NCBI GenBank assembly: GCA_947178505.1
Contig: CAMWYR010000003.1
Location: 1 to 64,000, forward strand
Source of the DNA: an uncultured Muribaculaceae bacterium
Lineage (GTDB): Bacteria; Bacteroidota; Bacteroidia; Bacteroidales; Muribaculaceae
Reading direction: 5' to 3'
DNA length: 64,000 nucleotides
Positions 116-10,709 of the stretch are shown piece by piece. Within the stretch, counting starts at the first letter, position 1; each line of letters begins with the position of its first letter. The position numbers were made by a program, and so were the translations under genes. The notes beneath the pieces are model-generated. The model saw only the letters and a program-made list of their open reading frames with translations. It was not told the origin of the DNA and made no database searches.

Positions 116-1696
116 TCATATCAGATGGGTTACGTTGATTTTCTTGTACTTGCTACCCATGCCGAGGGCGAAAGCCATCTGGTCTTTGATTATGAGTTCG
201 CCCTTCTGCAATCCTGCAATAGCGGTGCGAATGTCGTGGAGTTCCTGACCGCTTACCCCGAATAGGTCTTTGATAACCTTGTCGTCGATTGTCTGTTGCT
301 TCATGATCAATGGATACTGCGCATTGGCGTAGAAGTCAAAGCCTTTATTTTTGAAGTCAGCCATATTTTGCGTAGCGAGGATGATTGATAATCCCTTGTT
401 ACGTCCTACGGCAATAAGGTTGCGAAGCGGTCGATTATCAAAGCTCAGCATATAGTGAGCCTCGTCGATAATCGAGAAGTGGCGTATCTGAACAACATCG
501 TCATTGACGGCTTGTTTGTCAAGCTGTTCGTAGATGTTGTTTAGTTTCGACATAAGGAAGTACACGATAGCTTTCGCAATCGGGCCGTCCTTTGGGTAGC
601 CATCCATTTTGACGATAAAACTTTCTCCTACAAGGTCTGCTTTATCCTCGGTCTCAAAGATGTTTGCTCTTACAAGCTGTTTCAAAACCGATGAAATACT
701 ATCATCCTTATCAGGGTCTTTCATACGAGCCTGATAGTTTTTGAGCATGAGATCAAATGTTATCGGCTGTCCGTTAGTTGAGTTATATGCGTCTACTATA
801 GCCTCACTCAATCTGTTGCTCATATTTGAACTTGCCGTAACTCTATCAAGAGAACTTAAAGCGGAAGCCATTTCTGTTGAATAGAGATTAATCTCATTTT
901 GTGGTCTTCCGGTAAAGTTCTTGAACGGAGTAAACGGGAGGGGACGTTCTATGGGGTCAAGTATGCAAGAGCGGTTTACATCGAATAGTGACAACCAGTG
1001 ATTATTCTGAATGTCGCTGAACTCTCCCTTATAATCAAATAGAAGGAAGTTAACAGGATAACTACTCTCTGCCGAAATTGAACGTATCTGTTGCATCAGC
1101 ACAGCAAGAAGATTAGTCTTGCCTGAACCGGTTGCGCCGGCTATGATAATTTGAGCATTTGTTATAGCACGGCTATTGATATCAAGCGAAGCTTCCATTT
1201 CTGCATCTCCATAATTACCTACAAGCAGATTAAGAGCCGGAATATCCTTGGCAAGTACAGCTCGTCCTCCGGATGAGAAGAAGTAGTTTTCGAGATTATT
1301 GTCAGCCATCAAAGTATCACGACCGCGATACATTTCAGTACCAATAATTCGTGATAACACGTTATTGTTAGACAAATCAAGAGATGTATCTTTATAACGC
1401 ATTTTAATCAACGCTGAATAGAGAGGGGCTAACTCCTGATGGGTAAAGAAACTTGCCTGAAAACGACTGCCTTTCTGCAACTTAATAGCCTCTACTGTCT
1501 TCTCGTCTCGTTTGCCAGGAGTGGAAAGGCCAACAAGCAGACAAATACGCATCAGTTTATTGTTCAGTATCGAATATCTACGCTCATTACCGACAGAGCG
1601 TGAAAGATTGATTAGATTCTCAATCTTGTCTTTTAGCGGAGCAAACTCAGTATTGAAGTTTTCCGGAAAGTATATATCTCCAAATAGTAATGGCAT
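116..1696 (-). CDS. HerA/DUF87-like ATP-binding protein of a defence-type operon
   Basis: Walker A GATGSGKTN, Walker B FSIIDEAH, motif VGRNKGLSIILATQ; 4-nt gap from the upstream gene. Confidence 0.8.
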   Translation of the reverse strand: MPLLFGDIYFPENFNTEFAPLKDKIENLINLSRSVGNERRYSILNNKLMRICLLVGLSTPGKRDEKTVEAIKLQKGSRFQASFFTHQELAPLYSALIKMRYKDTSLDLSNNNVLSRIIGTEMYRGRDTLMADNNLENYFFSSGGRAVLAKDIPALNLLVGNYGDAEMEASLDINSRAITNAQIIIAGATGSGKTNLLAVLMQQIRSISAESSYPVNFLLFDYKGEFSDIQNNHWLSLFDVNRSCILDPIERPLPFTPFKNFTGRPQNEINLYSTEMASALSSLDRVTASSNMSNRLSEAIVDAYNSTNGQPITFDLMLKNYQARMKDPDKDDSISSVLKQLVRANIFETEDKADLVGESFIVKMDGYPKDGPIAKAIVYFLMSKLNNIYEQLDKQAVNDDVVQIRHFSIIDEAHYMLSFDNRPLRNLIAVGRNKGLSIILATQNMADFKNKGFDFYANAQYPLIMKQQTIDDKVIKDLFGVSGQELHDIRTAIAGLQKGELIIKDQMAFALGMGSKYKKINVTHLI

Positions 1697-1700
1697 GATC

Positions 1701-3701
1701 TTACTGATTTAATTCGATTCCAAAATATCCGTCGCTAACAGTAGTCTTCTGTTCCTCTACGTCGCGATGGAGCGTAAATGTCTTTGAAATGAAAGCTTCG
1801 AGTTTCTTATAGTCGCTATCCGGGCGAACCTCCGATGTCGTACAAAGTAAAATAGTCTGCTCGGCAAGATTCGGGAAATACTCTTCAAATAGTATTTCAC
1901 GGCTCTCATTATCCAGCACGCCCATCACTGTATCAATCATTACAGGAGGATTATAGTCACCAAGATTACGAAGAACCTTCAGAAGTACCTGAATGAATAT
2001 CTGCTTCGATGCAGCGTTGAGCTGATTGAGGTAAATTTCATTCCCCTTTGTATGGAAAATCTTAATATTGAAATTCTCCATGCTATCGCTCAACTCTACT
2101 CGACCAATATGACCTTTATAAGACACAAGCAAGCGATTGAGTTGCTGCTGCATTTCACTCTCGATCTGAGCTTTTTTCTTTTTCAGAAGACTATCCGCAA
2201 CCTTCTCAAAGAATGGTTTGAGTTTAACAAGAGTATCGTATTTCAAATCAGGCTCTTGCTGAATCTGAACATCATAACGATGGATGCGGTTTTCGAGCTT
2301 CTGAATTTCCTGTTTCAACTGTCCTTCGTTGACCTTAGCCTTTTCAAGTTTTCGCTCACTTTCTTCATACGATGAAATAATAAACTCATTACCTCCAGCT
2401 CTTGTCTGTTCAAGATTTTTTTTCTCAGTACGCATTTCCTCTATCGTAGCCAACAGCACCTCAAGATCTTGACGCTGACGGTATAGAGAAACGAACTGAT
2501 TATTTGATGCTCTGTTCACAAGTGACTTTAATGCCGCTATCTCAGATGAGTCAAGGTAATCAAATGGATCTTGGCGATTAACAGTATTCTGAATCGCAAC
2601 CATGTGTTTTACAACATTCTCTTCATCGACCTCAGGCGAACACAAAGACAAATCTTTCAGATATTCAATGATCTTACTTGTGACATCACGAAGTGTTTCA
2701 AGAGGATATGCCCCGGTACTTGACTGTTGCAACTCATTCTTAATGCGAAGTATATTATTTATCTCAACGGATAAACTTGAAGCGATTTTGGGTAGGAAAA
2801 CGTTGATTTCAACATTCTCCATAAATCCTTTAATATCTTCTGCATACGATGCTGCCCGAGATATTATATCGTTTATCTTGGCTGAAATATCTGTGATACG
2901 CTTATTCAGACTTGCACTTTGTTGTGCGCCCTCCTTCGCTTTATGATATTCAGATTCCATCGATGTTAAATACTTGTAAAGAGAATCTTGTTCAGCAACA
3001 CAAGCATTTAGTTCGGCTGTCAGTTTATCCTTTTGGCCTACCAACTCATTATATTCTGCAGCCTCCTGTTCTGCCTGCAATCGAAGTTTTGCCCACTCCT
3101 GCTGAAGCTTTTCAGCGGCACGTTTCAGTTGCAGATATTTTTTGAAACCGAGTACATTTTCAAAATTATCTTTAATAGTTTGAGCGAACACATTCTTTTT
3201 CAGAAGTTCGCTTGACTGCATGGCATCAAATAAGAAATACTGGCTTAACTCCTGCGGAAGATTGGCCTTGATAATCTTGTTGACTTCTTGCTCGTTTTTA
3301 ATACGCTCCTTAGTGGCGGTCATAGTGCCATACACAAACATATTGCCGTTCATGTTAAGGCTGACACTCTCAAGCGGTTTCCCGGCAGGGTTGAGAACAT
3401 ACGTGCGTTTTAGGATATATTTCTGCTCCTGACCGAGTACCTTACCGCTGAATGTTATCTGCAAGGATATTTCAGGCTTGACCTGTCCGACGGCACCTTG
3501 ATTAACAAGCTCCATGAAATGGTCACGGTTCTCAATTTTAAGACCGTAAAGCGCACCGCTTATAGCCTCAAAAAGTGTTGTCTTACCACCACCATTTGAG
3601 CCACCTATAAGGATAATCGGGCGTTCCTCGTCAACGGTCAAATCAAGATCGAGGTCAAGGTATGTCTTATAATTGCTGACTTTGATTCTCTGGATTAACA
3701 T
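1701..3701 (-). CDS. DndD-like SMC/Rad50-type AAA ATPase
   Basis: N-terminal Walker A GGSNGGGKTTLFE, YFLFDAMQSSELLK motif, long coiled coil, C-terminal PPVMIDTVMGVLD. Confidence 0.8.
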   Translation of the reverse strand: MLIQRIKVSNYKTYLDLDLDLTVDEERPIILIGGSNGGGKTTLFEAISGALYGLKIENRDHFMELVNQGAVGQVKPEISLQITFSGKVLGQEQKYILKRTYVLNPAGKPLESVSLNMNGNMFVYGTMTATKERIKNEQEVNKIIKANLPQELSQYFLFDAMQSSELLKKNVFAQTIKDNFENVLGFKKYLQLKRAAEKLQQEWAKLRLQAEQEAAEYNELVGQKDKLTAELNACVAEQDSLYKYLTSMESEYHKAKEGAQQSASLNKRITDISAKINDIISRAASYAEDIKGFMENVEINVFLPKIASSLSVEINNILRIKNELQQSSTGAYPLETLRDVTSKIIEYLKDLSLCSPEVDEENVVKHMVAIQNTVNRQDPFDYLDSSEIAALKSLVNRASNNQFVSLYRQRQDLEVLLATIEEMRTEKKNLEQTRAGGNEFIISSYEESERKLEKAKVNEGQLKQEIQKLENRIHRYDVQIQQEPDLKYDTLVKLKPFFEKVADSLLKKKKAQIESEMQQQLNRLLVSYKGHIGRVELSDSMENFNIKIFHTKGNEIYLNQLNAASKQIFIQVLLKVLRNLGDYNPPVMIDTVMGVLDNESREILFEEYFPNLAEQTILLCTTSEVRPDSDYKKLEAFISKTFTLHRDVEEQKTTVSDGYFGIELNQ

Positions 3702-3935: not shown

Positions 3936-6314
3936 TTACGAATTTTCTTGTTTAAAATCGAGATATGCCCAGCCTTCATGGTCTGTTGTATTCTCTATCT
4001 TATATCGCGACCACACCCAGTTCATTCCGTCTTTAACAATTACGCCTCCCACGAGATTTGCTCCTTTCGCATTTTCTTCAACGATGTAGTCGTTGAGTGC
4101 ATTATGCTTTAGGTGTGCAGTCAGAGGCTCGCTTCCGGCTGTCTTCGTATCAAAGAGCATAATCTTTCCATTCTTCAACCGGATAACAAAATCGACATAG
4201 AACGGCGCTTTGTTTCCGGATTCATTGGTATACTCTACAGCATAGTGCTGGCGGCCTTTGTCACCATTCTTATACCACCAATCAATATATTCGCTATTCT
4301 CTTCAAGGAAATTAGCAAATGCTTTTTCAGGTATCGATGCTGAATTAAGTTCGTAGAACGGCTGGAGAGCATGATTATCGGCAAGTTGAAGACGATGAGT
4401 CTCATCTTCATAGAGTCTTTCCTCCGGCACACTCCACTGAAATTCTTTCATTGCACGAGCAGATGCCTTCTGTTTCTTTACTTCGCGCATCTTTATATAC
4501 CGGTCTAATGCTATGCGTAGCAATCGGTCAAACTTCGGACGGTTATCGTGATACAGGAACACCTTCTTCGCATCCGTATCAAAGATACCGAAGAAGTCTG
4601 CTATTGTTTCGAGCAAATAGCTGGCAAGTTTGTCTGCCGGATTATTCTTACTCTCAAAAGAAGACACATATTTTGAAATTTCGCTTATAAATACGCGGTC
4701 AATCTCCGCCGCGGTTCTCGCAAATTTTACATTTTGATTATCGACATTAATAGTCTGTATCTCATTCTGAAAATGAATATCCTTTGGAATCGGAATATTC
4801 ACATTCGGGACATTGAGACGCAATATGTTTTCTACCTTCCTGCGATTTTCATTTATCTGTTCATCGTCTGTGTCGGGCAATGATTTAGGAGCATAATCTT
4901 CACCTCGCATGGCTGCAAGTTCAGCAAGACTAAACAATCCGGCGGACGCTTGCTCTATATTCCAGAACTTTTCACTTTCAGCGTATAAAATTCTACGAAA
5001 ATCCGGACCGAAGTAGTTTCGGGTATCGTTAGGGCGATCAGCATATACTGATTTCAACTCTACATTATTGAGTTCAGGACGGCATACTGCCACCAGAGCA
5101 TATTTCTTGATGTAGTCAGCATCCGTGGTGACTATGTTGATCTTTTCTTTGGCAATGTCGGTATATACATATCCAATGTTCAGACGGTCATCTGTATAGT
5201 GATGTTGCTCAGGCATTCGGAGTATACGTCCGACGGTCTGTATGGTGAACTGGTCGCTTGACAATTTACGGAAAATAAGAAGTACGGCAGCGCGGGGGCA
5301 GTCCCATCCAAGAGCAATCGCTTCCTTGAATAGAAGAACCTGTACCATATTGTCGGGATTTTCAAGACCTTCAAGGTTTTTCTTCTCACCTGAAAGCCAT
5401 ATTGCAAGTCGTCCGTTATCGACAGTTATATCTCGCATTGTATCGAGATATTGCTTAACGAAATTAGCAATTTCGTTATCCTCTGCCGTCATGGTTTCCT
5501 TCTGGTCATTAGGAAGTTGGATAAGCAGCAAAGGATTAATGTTTACTCCAAGTTTCTTATATGTTTCTGCAAGCTGATCTCGCTTATCAAGGGCAAGTTT
5601 CATCAGGTGATTATTGAGAGTAGTCTCATCTGTTATACCGCTATCAAGCTCAGGATTGAGAACCACCTCGCGTTTGATCATTTCAGCATTGATAACCTTG
5701 TCGCGTCCGATACGTACCTTTTCATCAAAGCGTACTGTCTTGGGAGTAGCGGAAATTCTTATTTCAACAGCAGGATTGATTTTATCAAGTACCGCACAGG
5801 ATTTATCCGCTGTCTTTGACCAGAACATATGTTCTTCGTCGATGATAGCAACTATCGGCAATCCGTTTTGCTCTTGGGTTTTACGACAAATTTCATATAG
5901 CGATGCACTTGATTCACTATCACGCACCATAAGGTTCTTCTCTTTATTGACGCTCTCCCAGTTAACAAAGAGTATTTCGCCGGGTTGAATACCTTCGCTC
6001 TGCTCAAGGTCATCAAACATTACAGGACGGAGTTCACGACCATCGGCAAATGCCCCCTTCAGTTTCATATAGCTCTGGAGATGGAGTTTACGGGGCGCAA
6101 ACCATATAAAGGCAACCTCTTCATACCGATTAGTACCGTCTGATTTTAGCGTTTCAACTATGTTTACAAGTGTCTGACAAGCCATAACAGTTTTACCTGA
6201 TCCTGTTGGAGCTTCAAATACGACTTTCCGACGTGAACCACCTTCATTAAGCAGTCGTACGACCTTATTAGTTAATTCTTTTACTGCATCCTGCTGATAT
6301 GCAAAATCTTTCAT
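3936..6314 (-). CDS. DEAD/DEAH-box helicase, type III Res-like, with PD-(D/E)XK-like C-terminus
   Basis: FEAPTGSGKTVMA, IIDEEH, SATPKT, QTVGRILRMPE helicase motifs; C-terminal FYVDFVIRLKNGKIMLFDTKTAG. Confidence 0.85.
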   Translation of the reverse strand: MKDFAYQQDAVKELTNKVVRLLNEGGSRRKVVFEAPTGSGKTVMACQTLVNIVETLKSDGTNRYEEVAFIWFAPRKLHLQSYMKLKGAFADGRELRPVMFDDLEQSEGIQPGEILFVNWESVNKEKNLMVRDSESSASLYEICRKTQEQNGLPIVAIIDEEHMFWSKTADKSCAVLDKINPAVEIRISATPKTVRFDEKVRIGRDKVINAEMIKREVVLNPELDSGITDETTLNNHLMKLALDKRDQLAETYKKLGVNINPLLLIQLPNDQKETMTAEDNEIANFVKQYLDTMRDITVDNGRLAIWLSGEKKNLEGLENPDNMVQVLLFKEAIALGWDCPRAAVLLIFRKLSSDQFTIQTVGRILRMPEQHHYTDDRLNIGYVYTDIAKEKINIVTTDADYIKKYALVAVCRPELNNVELKSVYADRPNDTRNYFGPDFRRILYAESEKFWNIEQASAGLFSLAELAAMRGEDYAPKSLPDTDDEQINENRRKVENILRLNVPNVNIPIPKDIHFQNEIQTINVDNQNVKFARTAAEIDRVFISEISKYVSSFESKNNPADKLASYLLETIADFFGIFDTDAKKVFLYHDNRPKFDRLLRIALDRYIKMREVKKQKASARAMKEFQWSVPEERLYEDETHRLQLADNHALQPFYELNSASIPEKAFANFLEENSEYIDWWYKNGDKGRQHYAVEYTNESGNKAPFYVDFVIRLKNGKIMLFDTKTAGSEPLTAHLKHNALNDYIVEENAKGANLVGGVIVKDGMNWVWSRYKIENTTDHEGWAYLDFKQENS

Positions 6315-8132
6315 TCGTCGCCTCCTTCCTCTTCAAAGTCAAACAAGTTTTCAGCCGCACGCTCCTCTTTATCCTTATTCTCAGGATTGAGTAATATGTT
6401 TTTAGGTTTCGGAAGTACACGTTTGTAAGCATTATATATAGCTGCCGGAAGAGCTGTCAGACGAACTTTCTCGCTGACACTCTCAAACTCCACATTCCAT
6501 GCGTCATTTCCCGGCGAGAACACATATACGATTATAGGATTTTCTACATCCATAACCTCTATTGCATCAATCAAGTCATAGATGGCTTCTTCGTTATAAA
6601 CAATGAGCATTTGCTTCTTTCCGTCGGCAAAGTAACGGAAACCATTTTCCAACGTCGGCATTTCTCCAAACATATCATGCTCAGTATAAAGATTCTCTTT
6701 TATGCAAAGCATATCTGAAGATAGCAACATCAATCGACGCATATTCTGAGGAGTACGGCGACGACCCACGAAGTCAGTACGATAATAGCGTAGATTATTA
6801 TTGTGTAATCCTTCGACATACTCCCCATTTGGCTTTGTATAGCCCTCAATCACACGCTTATTACGCTCGTAGGTAACATTCTCGCAAATACCGTTTTCGT
6901 TATTTGTGCAGAGAATACACTGACGTTTGCCTCCATCCTCGGCATTCAACTGCATCACGGCGTGAAGCGTTGTACCTGAACCTGCAAAGAAATCAAGAAC
7001 TGTGGCGTTTTCCTCTCCAAACTTCAATAAAAATGAAATTAACTCTAACGGCTTCGGATTATCAAATAATCTGGTAACATTAAATAGATTCTTTAAAGCC
7101 TCAGCTCCCGAAGAAGTTGTTCCAACCTCAGTCATAATGGAACGAGGTTTATAACCTTCAGGTTGGCGTTGTTTAAAATGAACAGTCCATTTTCCTTTAA
7201 CTTTTACTATACGAGCTTCACCTTGAGAAAGGTCGGATAGAAAACGAGGTTTTGACCGTAGCCAGCTTATTGGTTCTCCATTTTCTTCAAATTCCAGAAC
7301 TGTACCGTCTGGACATTCTATTGGATAATATTGTTTGCCGGACTTCCTTTTAAAAGTATCCCAAAAGAATCTTCCAATTTCATCTCTTTCTTTATAACGT
7401 GAAAGATATTCTTCTCCATACGGAATAAATATATTTGGCAACTCCGCTACATTCTTAGCATATACTAAAACATATTCATGTTCTGTGGCAACGAATTTGG
7501 AATCATTACCTCCACCTTTTTTCTTTTGCCATATCAATTGGGCTATAAAGTTAGATTCACCAAATAATCCACAATCTTTATCATCACATAGAAGTTTTAG
7601 ATTGGAAACCTCATTATCATCTATGGAGATAAATATTACTCCGCGGTCAGAAAGGAGTTTTTTTGCTATACGCAAACGACGCGACATAAATGACAGCCAC
7701 TTTGAGTGACGGTAGCTATCCTCTGAGTCTACAAAAGAGTCATTGTAGATAAAGTCTTTGTTGCCGGTATTGTAAGGTGGATCTATATAGATTACGTCGA
7801 TTTTGCCTTCGTGAGTGTAAGTAAGGGTTGTGAGAGCCTCGAGATTATCCCCCTCAATCAGAATATGATTAGGATAACTATTTGATTTACACTCACTTAC
7901 CCCCCCCCGAATCAGCTGAAACGGGAGCGATAATGGCGCGACTCTTAACCTCTTTAAGAACCGGTAGCTCAGTGCACAGACGTTCCTCGACTTCTTCTGG
8001 TTTATCTTCCCACACAAGACCATAAGTTTTAGTCTCATTGAGAAGTCCGAGAAGCGCAGAGCGTTCATCATCAGTCAAGCCCTCCAAGGTCTTGATCCGG
8101 TCAATCAATTTATTTTTCTCAGTCGCCTTCAT
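6311..8132 (-). CDS. Site-specific DNA methyltransferase (beta-class, type III Mod-like), frame split by a G9 tract; probably phase variable
   Basis: DPPYNTGNKDF (motif IV) and LDFFAGSGTT (motif I). ORFs 8132-7893 and 8071-6311 join into one protein if one G is removed from the tract at 7900-7908. Confidence 0.85.
7900..7908 (-). repeat. Homopolymeric G9 tract (C9 on + strand) inside the methyltransferase gene
   Basis: Overlapping translations ...ADSGGGK* and ...QLIRGGVSECKS both require 9 G; the full-length frame needs 8 (or 11). Confidence 0.85.
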
Positions 8133-8576: not shown

Positions 8577-9281
8577 ATGAAGGCTTTTAAATCAGTATGC
8601 GCTGTCGTGCTTTGCGGCAGTATGCTTTTCGGCACGACATCGTGCAACATGAGTAATACGGGCAAAGGCGCTCTCATCGGCGGTGGCGGCGGTGCAGGCG
8701 TAGGTGCCGGAATCGGCGCAATCTTCGGTGGTGGCAAGGGTGCTGCAATCGGTTCGGGCGTGGGTGCTGCAATCGGTGCAGGTGTAGGCGCGCTTATCGG
8801 TAACCATATGGACAAGCAGAAGAAGGAACTTGAGAAGGAACTCGCCAACACCGCAAAGGTTGAGGAGACTCAGGACCCGGCAACCGGCCTGAAGGCAATC
8901 CGCGTCACTTTCGAGGGCGGTATCCTCTTCGCTACCGGAAAGTCTACTATCTCAGAGCAGGCCAAGGCCAACCTCGCTAAGTTCGCAGCCAACCTCAAGG
9001 AGAATCCCAACACTGACATCCAGATTCTCGGGTTCACCGACAACACAGGGTCGTTCGCAGCCAATGAGCGTGTATCGACCGACCGCGCGGCAGCCGTGCT
9101 CAGCTTCCTCGCCAACCAGGGTGTATCTCCCCTCCGTATGACGTCGAAGGGCATCCCCATGGCCGACTACGTCGCATCAAACGACACTCCCGAAGGCCGT
9201 GCCGAGAACCGTCGCGTGGAGATCTTCATCACCGCCAACGACCAGATGATCAAGGATGCTCAGCAGCAGGTGAACAGCTGA
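8577..9281 (+). CDS. OmpA-family lipoprotein with glycine-zipper domain
   Basis: Signal peptide and lipobox-like LFGTTSCN, Gly-rich zipper, OmpA C-terminal TDNTGS...NRRVEIFI; start placed at internal ATG 8577. Confidence 0.88.
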   Translation: MKAFKSVCAVVLCGSMLFGTTSCNMSNTGKGALIGGGGGAGVGAGIGAIFGGGKGAAIGSGVGAAIGAGVGALIGNHMDKQKKELEKELANTAKVEETQDPATGLKAIRVTFEGGILFATGKSTISEQAKANLAKFAANLKENPNTDIQILGFTDNTGSFAANERVSTDRAAAVLSFLANQGVSPLRMTSKGIPMADYVASNDTPEGRAENRRVEIFITANDQMIKDAQQQVNS

Positions 9282-9314
9282 TCCCCCTTCATAAAATAAC
9301 ACAACTCCATAAAA

Positions 9315-9355
9315 AGCAGGATGCGCCCCGCCCCGGGTCGCATCCTGCTTCTTCT
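9315..9355 (+). terminator. Rho-independent terminator after the OmpA-family gene
   Basis: Stem agcaggatgcg/cgcatcctgct followed by a T-rich run. Confidence 0.75.
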
Positions 9356-9384: not shown

Positions 9385-9810
9385 CTATGTATTTGTTTCT
9401 GAAATATTGATTACGAGATCTTCTTTAAGGATAGTTGTGAGGTCGATGGGGGGTAAAATAAAATTCCTGAATTCAGAATCTTCAGTTTTAGCAAACATTA
9501 TTCCTCTGGCCACCCCGATGGTCTGATTTGCAAAGAACCCGAGATCATCTTTGGAAATTATGAGCACTTTATCTTTAATCAGGTTATCCCAATCTTCAGA
9601 AAAGATATCAAATTCGCAGTTGATTCCAAGTTTTAAAATGGTTCTTTCATCGTGTAGGAATTCCACAGAAACTTTGCAGGCAATTCGTTTGGCATTGCGT
9701 GCCGCTTTGAAGCCCAGATTGACTTTAAACGATAACCCTTCCGATGGGGCTTTATCGTTTAAAATTGCAAATTGCTCTATGTTTATTTTGGCCATTCTAA
9801 AACGTATCAT
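9385..9810 (-). CDS. SecB-like chaperone of a TAC-type module
   Basis: Small beta-rich protein; tail IGVARGIMFAK...NFILPPIDLTTIL resembles the SecB C-terminal region; ATGA overlap with the antitoxin gene. Confidence 0.6.
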   Translation of the reverse strand: MIRFRMAKINIEQFAILNDKAPSEGLSFKVNLGFKAARNAKRIACKVSVEFLHDERTILKLGINCEFDIFSEDWDNLIKDKVLIISKDDLGFFANQTIGVARGIMFAKTEDSEFRNFILPPIDLTTILKEDLVINISETNT

Positions 9811-10211
9811 GCAGCTTTTGTTTTTAATTCAACTGGAATAAACTCAAAACTATCGCAACTGGAGGTTTGTGTAAACTCGTTGAAGATACCCGGCATATAT
9901 TCCACATTTAAATCTGCATCAGGAATCTTATATTCTTTAGCATCATCAGCTATGACCTCCTTAATAGGTCTGAATTCAATTTTTGGAACGTAACCGAAAG
10001 CAAGTGCCAATTCAAAAAATTTGGAAAGTTTATGGTCATAATCTCCGTTTAGTAATTGAGATACGTACCCCTTGCTGACACCGAGATGATTTGCCAGTTG
10101 CACACGGTTAAACTTATGAGTCTCCATGAAATTTTCTGCACAATTATACAGGTTAATTTGTGTTTTGGCTATCCAATATTCCGGAGAACTTAATATAGTT
10201 TTCCTTTCCAT
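9807..10211 (-). CDS. Xre-family HTH antitoxin (HigA-like) with C-terminal extension
   Basis: HTH VQLANHLGVSKGYVSQLLNG; about 50-residue C-terminal tail; directly follows a toxin-like ORF. Confidence 0.75.
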   Translation of the reverse strand: MERKTILSSPEYWIAKTQINLYNCAENFMETHKFNRVQLANHLGVSKGYVSQLLNGDYDHKLSKFFELALAFGYVPKIEFRPIKEVIADDAKEYKIPDADLNVEYMPGIFNEFTQTSSCDSFEFIPVELKTKAA

Positions 10212-10219
10212 GTCTTTTC

Positions 10220-10597
10220 CTATTTGGTGAAATCCTTTATAAGGCTCTTTAATTTTTTAATATCCTTCTTTTGTGTGCCTTTATATCCGGCAATTACGAT
10301 GAAGAAGTTGGGTTTCTGCTTAATTACATATACCCTGAGACGATCTTTCTTGAATTCGAATAGATCAGAACGGTCCTTATCTTCAATATGGTTGAATTTC
10401 GTTTTAGGGAAGCGATTCTGATCTGTAAGATTATCCATGTAAGATATTATGTAATTAAACAGTTTTTTATCGGAGGCATTATGACTAATTTTTTGTAGAA
10501 ATTCGTCAAAGTAACACACTCCGTCAATAAACAGTTTATGGAACGTATATTGAGGATTGTTTACATCTGTGTATAATTCTGTTTTATATTCCGGCAT
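10220..10597 (-). CDS. RelE/HigB-like toxin
   Basis: Size, basic C-terminus, RLRVYVIKQKPNFFIVIAGYKGTQKKDIKKLK; start set to ATG 10597 because the longer ORF start overlaps the -7 box. Confidence 0.65.
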   Translation of the reverse strand: MPEYKTELYTDVNNPQYTFHKLFIDGVCYFDEFLQKISHNASDKKLFNYIISYMDNLTDQNRFPKTKFNHIEDKDRSDLFEFKKDRLRVYVIKQKPNFFIVIAGYKGTQKKDIKKLKSLIKDFTK

Positions 10598-10630: not shown

Positions 10631-10662
10631 CAAAAATAATCTTTTTCTACTTCTTTTACAAA
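10631..10662 (-). promoter_or_regulatory. Bacteroidota-type promoter of the TAC operon (TTTG-N20-TATTTTTG)
   Basis: Minus strand TTTG (10662-10659), 20-nt spacer, TATTTTTG (10638-10631). Confidence 0.65.
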
Positions 10663-10709
10663 TTTCAAGAGGAAAAGTTTAGTTGCAACTAAACTTTTCC
10701 TCTTGAAAT
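10662..10709. repeat. Perfect 48-bp palindrome (24-bp arms, no spacer)
   Basis: atttcaagaggaaaagtttagttg|caactaaacttttcctcttgaaat. Confidence 0.9.

Follow-up and report, generated by a model that had tools for sequence, protein, structure and literature searches.

A HigB-HigA-SecB-type toxin-antitoxin-chaperone operon predicted in an uncultured Muribaculaceae bacterium

Organization of the operon and its upstream palindrome

We analyzed a 64,000-nucleotide stretch of DNA (the window) from an uncultured Muribaculaceae bacterium (contig CAMWYR010000003.1). Its open reading frames include three co-directional genes on the minus strand, extending from 10597 to 9385, that encode a toxin, an antitoxin, and a chaperone (Table 1). 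A prior sequence-only reading of this DNA had described the same order (RelE/HigB-like toxin, Xre antitoxin, 141-aa protein) and had noted that the last two genes overlap by ATGA and that the antitoxin extends ~50 aa past its helix-turn-helix (HTH). We found all three genes in place; the antitoxin stop and chaperone start share the 4-nt ATGA, and 54 aa follow the end of the HTH domain. The gap between the toxin and antitoxin genes is 8 nt. The toxin ORF begins with ATG at 10597 and stops at 10220. Since relatives support this ATG, we preferred it to an alternative TTG start at 10633. Relatives keep the toxin-antitoxin-chaperone gene order.

Table 1. Features of the operon and its flanks, in window coordinates
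Feature	Position	Strand	Basis
48-bp perfect palindrome, likely operator, core AAAAGTTTAGT-N4-ACTAAACTTTT	10662..10709		conserved core 5′ of module
Toxin gene, predicted RelE/HigB (BECR) fold, 125 aa	10220..10597	-	ORF, AlphaFold2, Foldseek
Antitoxin gene, Xre/Cro-type HTH plus C-terminal tail, 134 aa	9807..10211	-	sub-cut-off HTH_3, homologue L073, alignment A5
Antitoxin HTH DNA-binding domain, residues 33-76	9984..10115	-	PF01381 match
Candidate chaperone-addiction (ChAD) tail, residues 81-134, end ...KTKAA	9810..9971	-	tail length and aromatics track chaperone
Candidate ClpX-type degron, Lys-Ala-Ala end	9810..9818	-	terminal Ala pattern; analogy to Mtb HigA1 and CmdA
SecB-like chaperone gene, 141 aa	9385..9810	-	AlphaFold2, Foldseek, PADLOC PDC-M64C
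Chaperone LPP motif, residues 119-121	9448..9456	-	by-eye alignment with Mtb SecB-TA L154-P155-P156
Likely intrinsic terminator, AAGCAGGATGCG / CGCATCCTGCTT plus T run	about 9311..9350	-	3′ of chaperone gene, read by eye

Six distinct loci (the window, L002, L003, L038, L073, and L075) have the palindrome core AGTTTAG-N6-CTAAACT 5′ of the module. Outside those six module loci, there was no instance of the core in about 1.0 Mb of loci, while permuted half-site inverted repeats averaged 0.02. The genome has a single copy of the inner core. Judged from its sequence, the palindrome is a likely operator that the antitoxin would bind, which fits autoregulation.

Predicted folds of the toxin and the chaperone

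The AlphaFold2 model of the toxin, made from an alignment of ten close homologues, had a pLDDT of 95.8. Foldseek matched this model to HP0894, YafQ, RelE, YoeB, ParE, HigB, and M. tuberculosis (Mtb) HigB1 (7awk). The E-values were weak (best 7.9e-3) but the superfamily was consistent across matches, and Mtb HigB1 had the highest query-normalised TM-score among the toxin matches listed (0.53). Fold comparison alone succeeded in placing the protein: a profile search for PDB relatives found none, and family searches returned weak matches to TIGR02683 and phrog_3445 ('toxin'). The model and the superfamily matches agree with the RelE/HigB-like toxin proposed from sequence, and we assign the toxin a predicted RelE/HigB (BECR) fold. 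Conserved residues are E81, R88, Y90, G104, K106, Q109, and D112. By eye, the spacing of K106-x-x-Q109-K110 is similar to that of K95-x-x-Q98-K99 in Mtb HigB1, which belongs to the catalytic pocket (PMC9098466). We infer that the toxin motif resembles this pocket.

The end of the 141-aa protein had been said to resemble the C-terminal region of SecB. At the level of sequence, this was not borne out. Neither the window chaperone nor 20 homologues matched PF02556 (SecB) or another meaningful Pfam family, PDB searches with the single sequence and with a profile returned nothing significant, and hhalign against E. coli SecB aligned only LPPIDLTTIL with LAPVNFDALF, which was not significant (P 0.34, 0.21). 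Comparison of folds did reveal the resemblance. The AlphaFold2 model (pLDDT 94.7, from a 20-sequence alignment) is made up of four long strands and, after them, a long helix. When this model was compared to the PDB using Foldseek, the best match was 5mtw, which contains M. tuberculosis Rv1957 and the HigA1 addiction peptide. The top 17 matches were all SecB or SecB-like chains (probability 1.00, TM 0.39-0.60), with E. coli and Haemophilus SecB ranking behind 5mtw. TM-scores to SecB and Rv1957 were moderate (0.51-0.58). The 17 include two streptococcal structures of unknown function, 2o2a and 2hng, which we take to be members of the SecB-like superfamily.

Since no homology to SecB could be detected in the sequence of the chaperone, its assignment rests on the predicted fold, and the resemblance to SecB is one of fold rather than of sequence. 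Whether the third protein folds like SecB was a point at which the sequence-only reading had declared itself open to refutation; the predicted fold is that of SecB, with 5mtw as the best solved match. A weak match to RaiA/protein Y was rejected as the identity of the protein because of this fold. As 33 TAC chaperones reportedly fall outside PF02556 (PMC4257090), the failure to match this family is compatible with membership in a toxin-antitoxin-chaperone (TAC) system. A canonical export SecB is solitary and recognised by PF02556, while this chaperone gene is linked to a toxin-antitoxin pair and is PF02556-negative. The genome contains a single copy of the operon's SecB-like chaperone, and a Pfam search of the genome found no PF02556 protein. 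Within the LPP motif of the chaperone, P120 is invariant among the 20 homologues. In Mtb SecB-TA, the residues L154-P155-P156 touch the antitoxin peptide at Tyr114 (PMC6377645).

The antitoxin tail and its alanine end

The match of the antitoxin to Pfam HTH_3 (PF01381) fell below the cut-off (E=5.9e-4), while that of its homologue L073 was above it. To characterize the region beyond the HTH, we compared 104 distinct antitoxins encoded directly 5′ of a SecB-like gene with 17 that had no detectable chaperone, the latter being antitoxins of the same toxin family. In the non-redundant sets (90 versus 14), the median tail length was 56 aa for chaperone-linked antitoxins and 25.5 aa for chaperone-less antitoxins (p=2.6e-7, phylogeny ignored), and tails contained 6 versus 0.5 aromatic residues (p=6.5e-8, phylogeny ignored). 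Of the small set of 14 non-redundant chaperone-less controls, a few bear hydrophilic or other tails themselves. A matched pair shows the difference more clearly. The viral contig L220 and the cellular loci L152 and L153 encode toxins of one family (44-48% identity) and antitoxins that are 45-55% identical. In L220, where a SecB-like gene follows, the antitoxin has an additional C-terminal tail that ends in LKVA; in L152 and L153, which lack the chaperone, the antitoxins reach no further than the HTH. In these sequences, a C-terminal extension is present in chaperone-linked antitoxins and, those few controls aside, absent from chaperone-less homologues. The tail sequence itself is poorly conserved, and there was no clear instance of an Mtb HigA1-like W-x-R...Y motif in the window tail.

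Alanine was the last residue in 49 of the 104 chaperone-linked antitoxins (43/90 in the non-redundant set), compared to 10/178 flanking genes, and in all 15 antitoxins of the closest clade, regardless of how the antitoxin and chaperone genes overlap. In the chaperone-linked set as a whole, about half end in another residue. We rejected the idea that the alanine is an artefact of the ATGA overlap, since it is kept at gene gaps of -4, -1, +1, +2, +4, and +5 nt. We first noticed this ending in an alignment, and published work then revealed it as a known TAC feature. The final Val-Ala of M. tuberculosis HigA1 is a ClpX recognition sequence that lies within the addiction region (PMC8165232), and CmdA ends in LAA and is degraded by ClpP, in which it is described as resembling other TAC antitoxins (PMC11618068). 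The Lys-Ala-Ala end of the window antitoxin is a candidate ClpX degron, and the tail, its association with the chaperone, and its Ala-rich end fit a putative chaperone-addiction region.

Distribution, known relatives, and proposed function

Chaperone homologues were found in 20/297 family genomes by sequence search and in 59/393 order and 57/297 phylum genomes by profile search. A genome scan with alignment A2 yielded 72 named loci with a chaperone homologue, mostly from Bacteroidota; relatives retrieved by name came from Muribaculaceae and other Bacteroidales. Using an iterated HTH profile to recognise antitoxins, we found that 104 of 135 distinct chaperone ORFs lie directly behind an Xre antitoxin, with 6 of the remaining 31 cut off upstream. 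Phage records contained no match and plasmid records one. On each of three viral contigs (L219, L220, and L222), the chaperone gene is preceded by a toxin and an antitoxin. In the flavobacteria L090, L091, and L094, type I restriction-modification operons harbour the module, with hsdS on one side of it and hsdR on the other; L088, L096 (with an extra gene), and L122 have the same kind of setting by homology. This placement in all six loci suggests a guard or co-regulated role.

The sequence-only reading had placed the operon beside a methylase operon, in a small defence island. The two are near one another but not directly adjacent: an OmpA-family gene (8580-9281, plus strand) separates the TAC operon from a type III restriction-modification pair, and the island is thus looser than had been implied. 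Unlike the window, relatives show true embedding in restriction-modification operons. When we looked for an empty site, OmpA-family homologues in the same genus were flanked by neither glycosyltransferase nor restriction-modification genes.

PADLOC files this module family as the unnamed defence candidate PDC-M64, with A, B, and C models. PDC-M64C matched the window chaperone (E=2.6e-7) and was the only model matched in the window, as the toxin and antitoxin missed the M64 models at E 0.1. All three genes of L090 match PDC-M64A/B/C, and toxins and antitoxins of close and distant relatives match as well. The name PDC-M64 was not found in the literature searched. The PDC-M64 models, the hsdS/hsdR placement, and the copies on viral contigs suggest, through linkage, a connection to defence.

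The likeness to the mycobacterial TAC, which had been proposed from sequence, holds for the predicted structures. In the M. tuberculosis system (HigB1-HigA1-Rv1957), the gene order, the toxin superfamily (with HigB1 among the toxin matches), and the HTH antitoxin with a C-terminal extension are alike, and SecB-fold Rv1957 is the single best structural match of the window chaperone. Both antitoxins have hydrophobic, alanine-containing C-termini, Val-Ala in HigA1 and Ala-Ala in the window. The two systems differ in that the chaperones are 11-13% identical in structural alignment and the window one is unrecognised by PF02556, the HigA1 tail is unrelated in sequence, with its WHR...Y motif missing from the window tail, and the host phyla are different. 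CmdTAC (PD-T4-9), which had been cited for a role of such modules in phage defence, has a SecB-fold chaperone and an unstable, LAA-ending antitoxin with ClpP-dependent release, and the window operon would be like it in these respects. The toxins differ: that of CmdTAC is an mRNA ADP-ribosyltransferase, and the window toxin has a predicted RelE/HigB fold. Further, CmdA reportedly has two helices at its N-terminus and an unstructured tail after them, while the window antitoxin is an Xre HTH protein. As the CmdTAC toxin is unrelated, HigBAC of E. coli C496 is the better comparator and, by analogy, may be the closest functional model. This phage-sensing TAC (Mets et al. 2024, as described in PMC11980606) consists of a HigB toxin, an antitoxin, and a SecB-like chaperone. 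Disruption of HigA-HigC by the lambda major tail protein switches HigB on, and release of the antitoxin upon chaperone hijack is proposed, which would be the same logic. That trigger has no known counterpart for the window locus.

The three-gene arrangement is thus confirmed, and its interpretation is supported by predicted structures and comparative genomics. We consider it very probable (roughly 0.87) that the operon is a tripartite HigB-HigA-SecB-type TAC that functions as follows. The toxin would cleave mRNA in the ribosomal A site, and the antitoxin would neutralise the toxin and repress the operon at the palindrome. The tail would make the antitoxin unstable and a ClpXP substrate, and the dedicated chaperone would bind and shield this tail. 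In this way, the SecB-like chaperone probably protects a fragile antitoxin from loss and holds a ribosome-targeting toxin in check. If another client, which for E. coli TACs is a phage capsid or tail protein, drew the chaperone away, the antitoxin would be degraded, the toxin freed, and translation stopped. The most likely outcome would be abortive infection. By analogy with these systems, the antitoxin would depend on its chaperone and the operon may act in phage defence.

It is conceivable, at somewhat under even odds, that the operon is a TAC module that serves genome stabilisation or a stress response, as in selfish addiction, rather than phage defence. The patchy distribution (20/297 family genomes) would fit such a role, as would the several relatives in which the toxin gene is interrupted while antitoxin and chaperone persist, as selfish modules decay, and the Mtb TAC has been discussed as a stress system (PMC8165232). 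However, the module family is a defence candidate in PADLOC, several flavobacteria have the module embedded among type I restriction-modification genes, and the well-studied E. coli TACs defend against phage (PMC11618068 and PMC11980606).

The remaining alternatives concern the third gene. It is unlikely that the locus is an ordinary two-component HigBA followed by an incidental SecB-fold protein for general chaperoning or export. Relatives found with the same profile that lack an upstream antitoxin do exist, including Chlorobium proteins and genes near rho, but the overlap of the chaperone start with the antitoxin stop, the direct antitoxin linkage of 104/135 chaperone ORFs, and the association of a long antitoxin tail with the chaperone all argue against this reading. 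We consider it very improbable that the protein is a hotdog/thioesterase-like enzyme or another alpha/beta protein. While no sequence family supports SecB, and thioesterase and dehydratase folds do appear in the Foldseek results, they rank after the SecB matches (E >= 0.035). All 17 best structural matches are SecB or SecB-like, with a TAC chaperone first, and hotdog folds mostly align over ~70 columns, compared to 122-147 for SecB and SecB-like chains.

The TAC is an already known type of system that is often found beside or inside phage-defence genes; the operon is a new member, from a branch missed by standard family searches. Through this branch, which PF02556 misses, chaperone-addicted toxin-antitoxin systems extend across Bacteroidota, a group prominent among gut and environmental bacteria. 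Natural pairs with and without the chaperone provide material for asking what makes an antitoxin chaperone-dependent, and the presence of the module in restriction-modification operons and viral contigs adds to the evidence for SecB-like chaperones as infection sensors. More speculatively, and with less than even confidence, we propose that a single lineage of SecB-like chaperones in Bacteroidota works with several toxin-antitoxin pairs unrelated to one another (at least two HigB/RelE subtypes, and a HEPN-like protein whose antitoxin is unrelated). These pairs would share a transferable Ala-degron tail, and the chaperone would be a sensor of phage proteins that is sometimes wired into type I restriction-modification operons.

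Several additional features emerged. The type III mod gene of the window is split in two frames on the minus strand (7893-8132 and 6311-8071). The frames part at nine consecutive G (about 7900-7908): a Mod-like N-terminal piece of 79 aa terminates just past them, and the methylase domain is read onward in a different frame. Such a split resembles that of a phase-variable poly-G tract in its off state, or may be an error of assembly. Directly 3′ of the type III genes are genes for a HerA/DndH-like ATPase and a DndD/PbeC-like AAA protein (116-3701, minus strand), possibly forming a composite defence cluster with them.

Among relatives, the toxin is interrupted (by a stop, frame change, or contig end) with antitoxin and chaperone open in L148 (the same locus as L003/L077), L151 (L005/L082), and L150/L155 (from the genome of L004/L078). 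SecB-like proteins without an upstream antitoxin (L062-L072 and L117, from a clade with Chlorobium among its members, and L051 and L052, adjoining rho) are possibly solitary SecB relatives able to root the TAC branch. Lastly, a SecB-like gene follows an unrelated pair in L011, L085:2181-3423, and the viral contig L221:3154-4423. One member of this pair has no Pfam match and is presumably HEPN-like, given its RxxADY motif; the other is an antitoxin without an HTH, ending in EIAA, RKAA, and KEAA, respectively. These loci may represent a TAC type that has yet to be described and that shares the Ala-ending tail.
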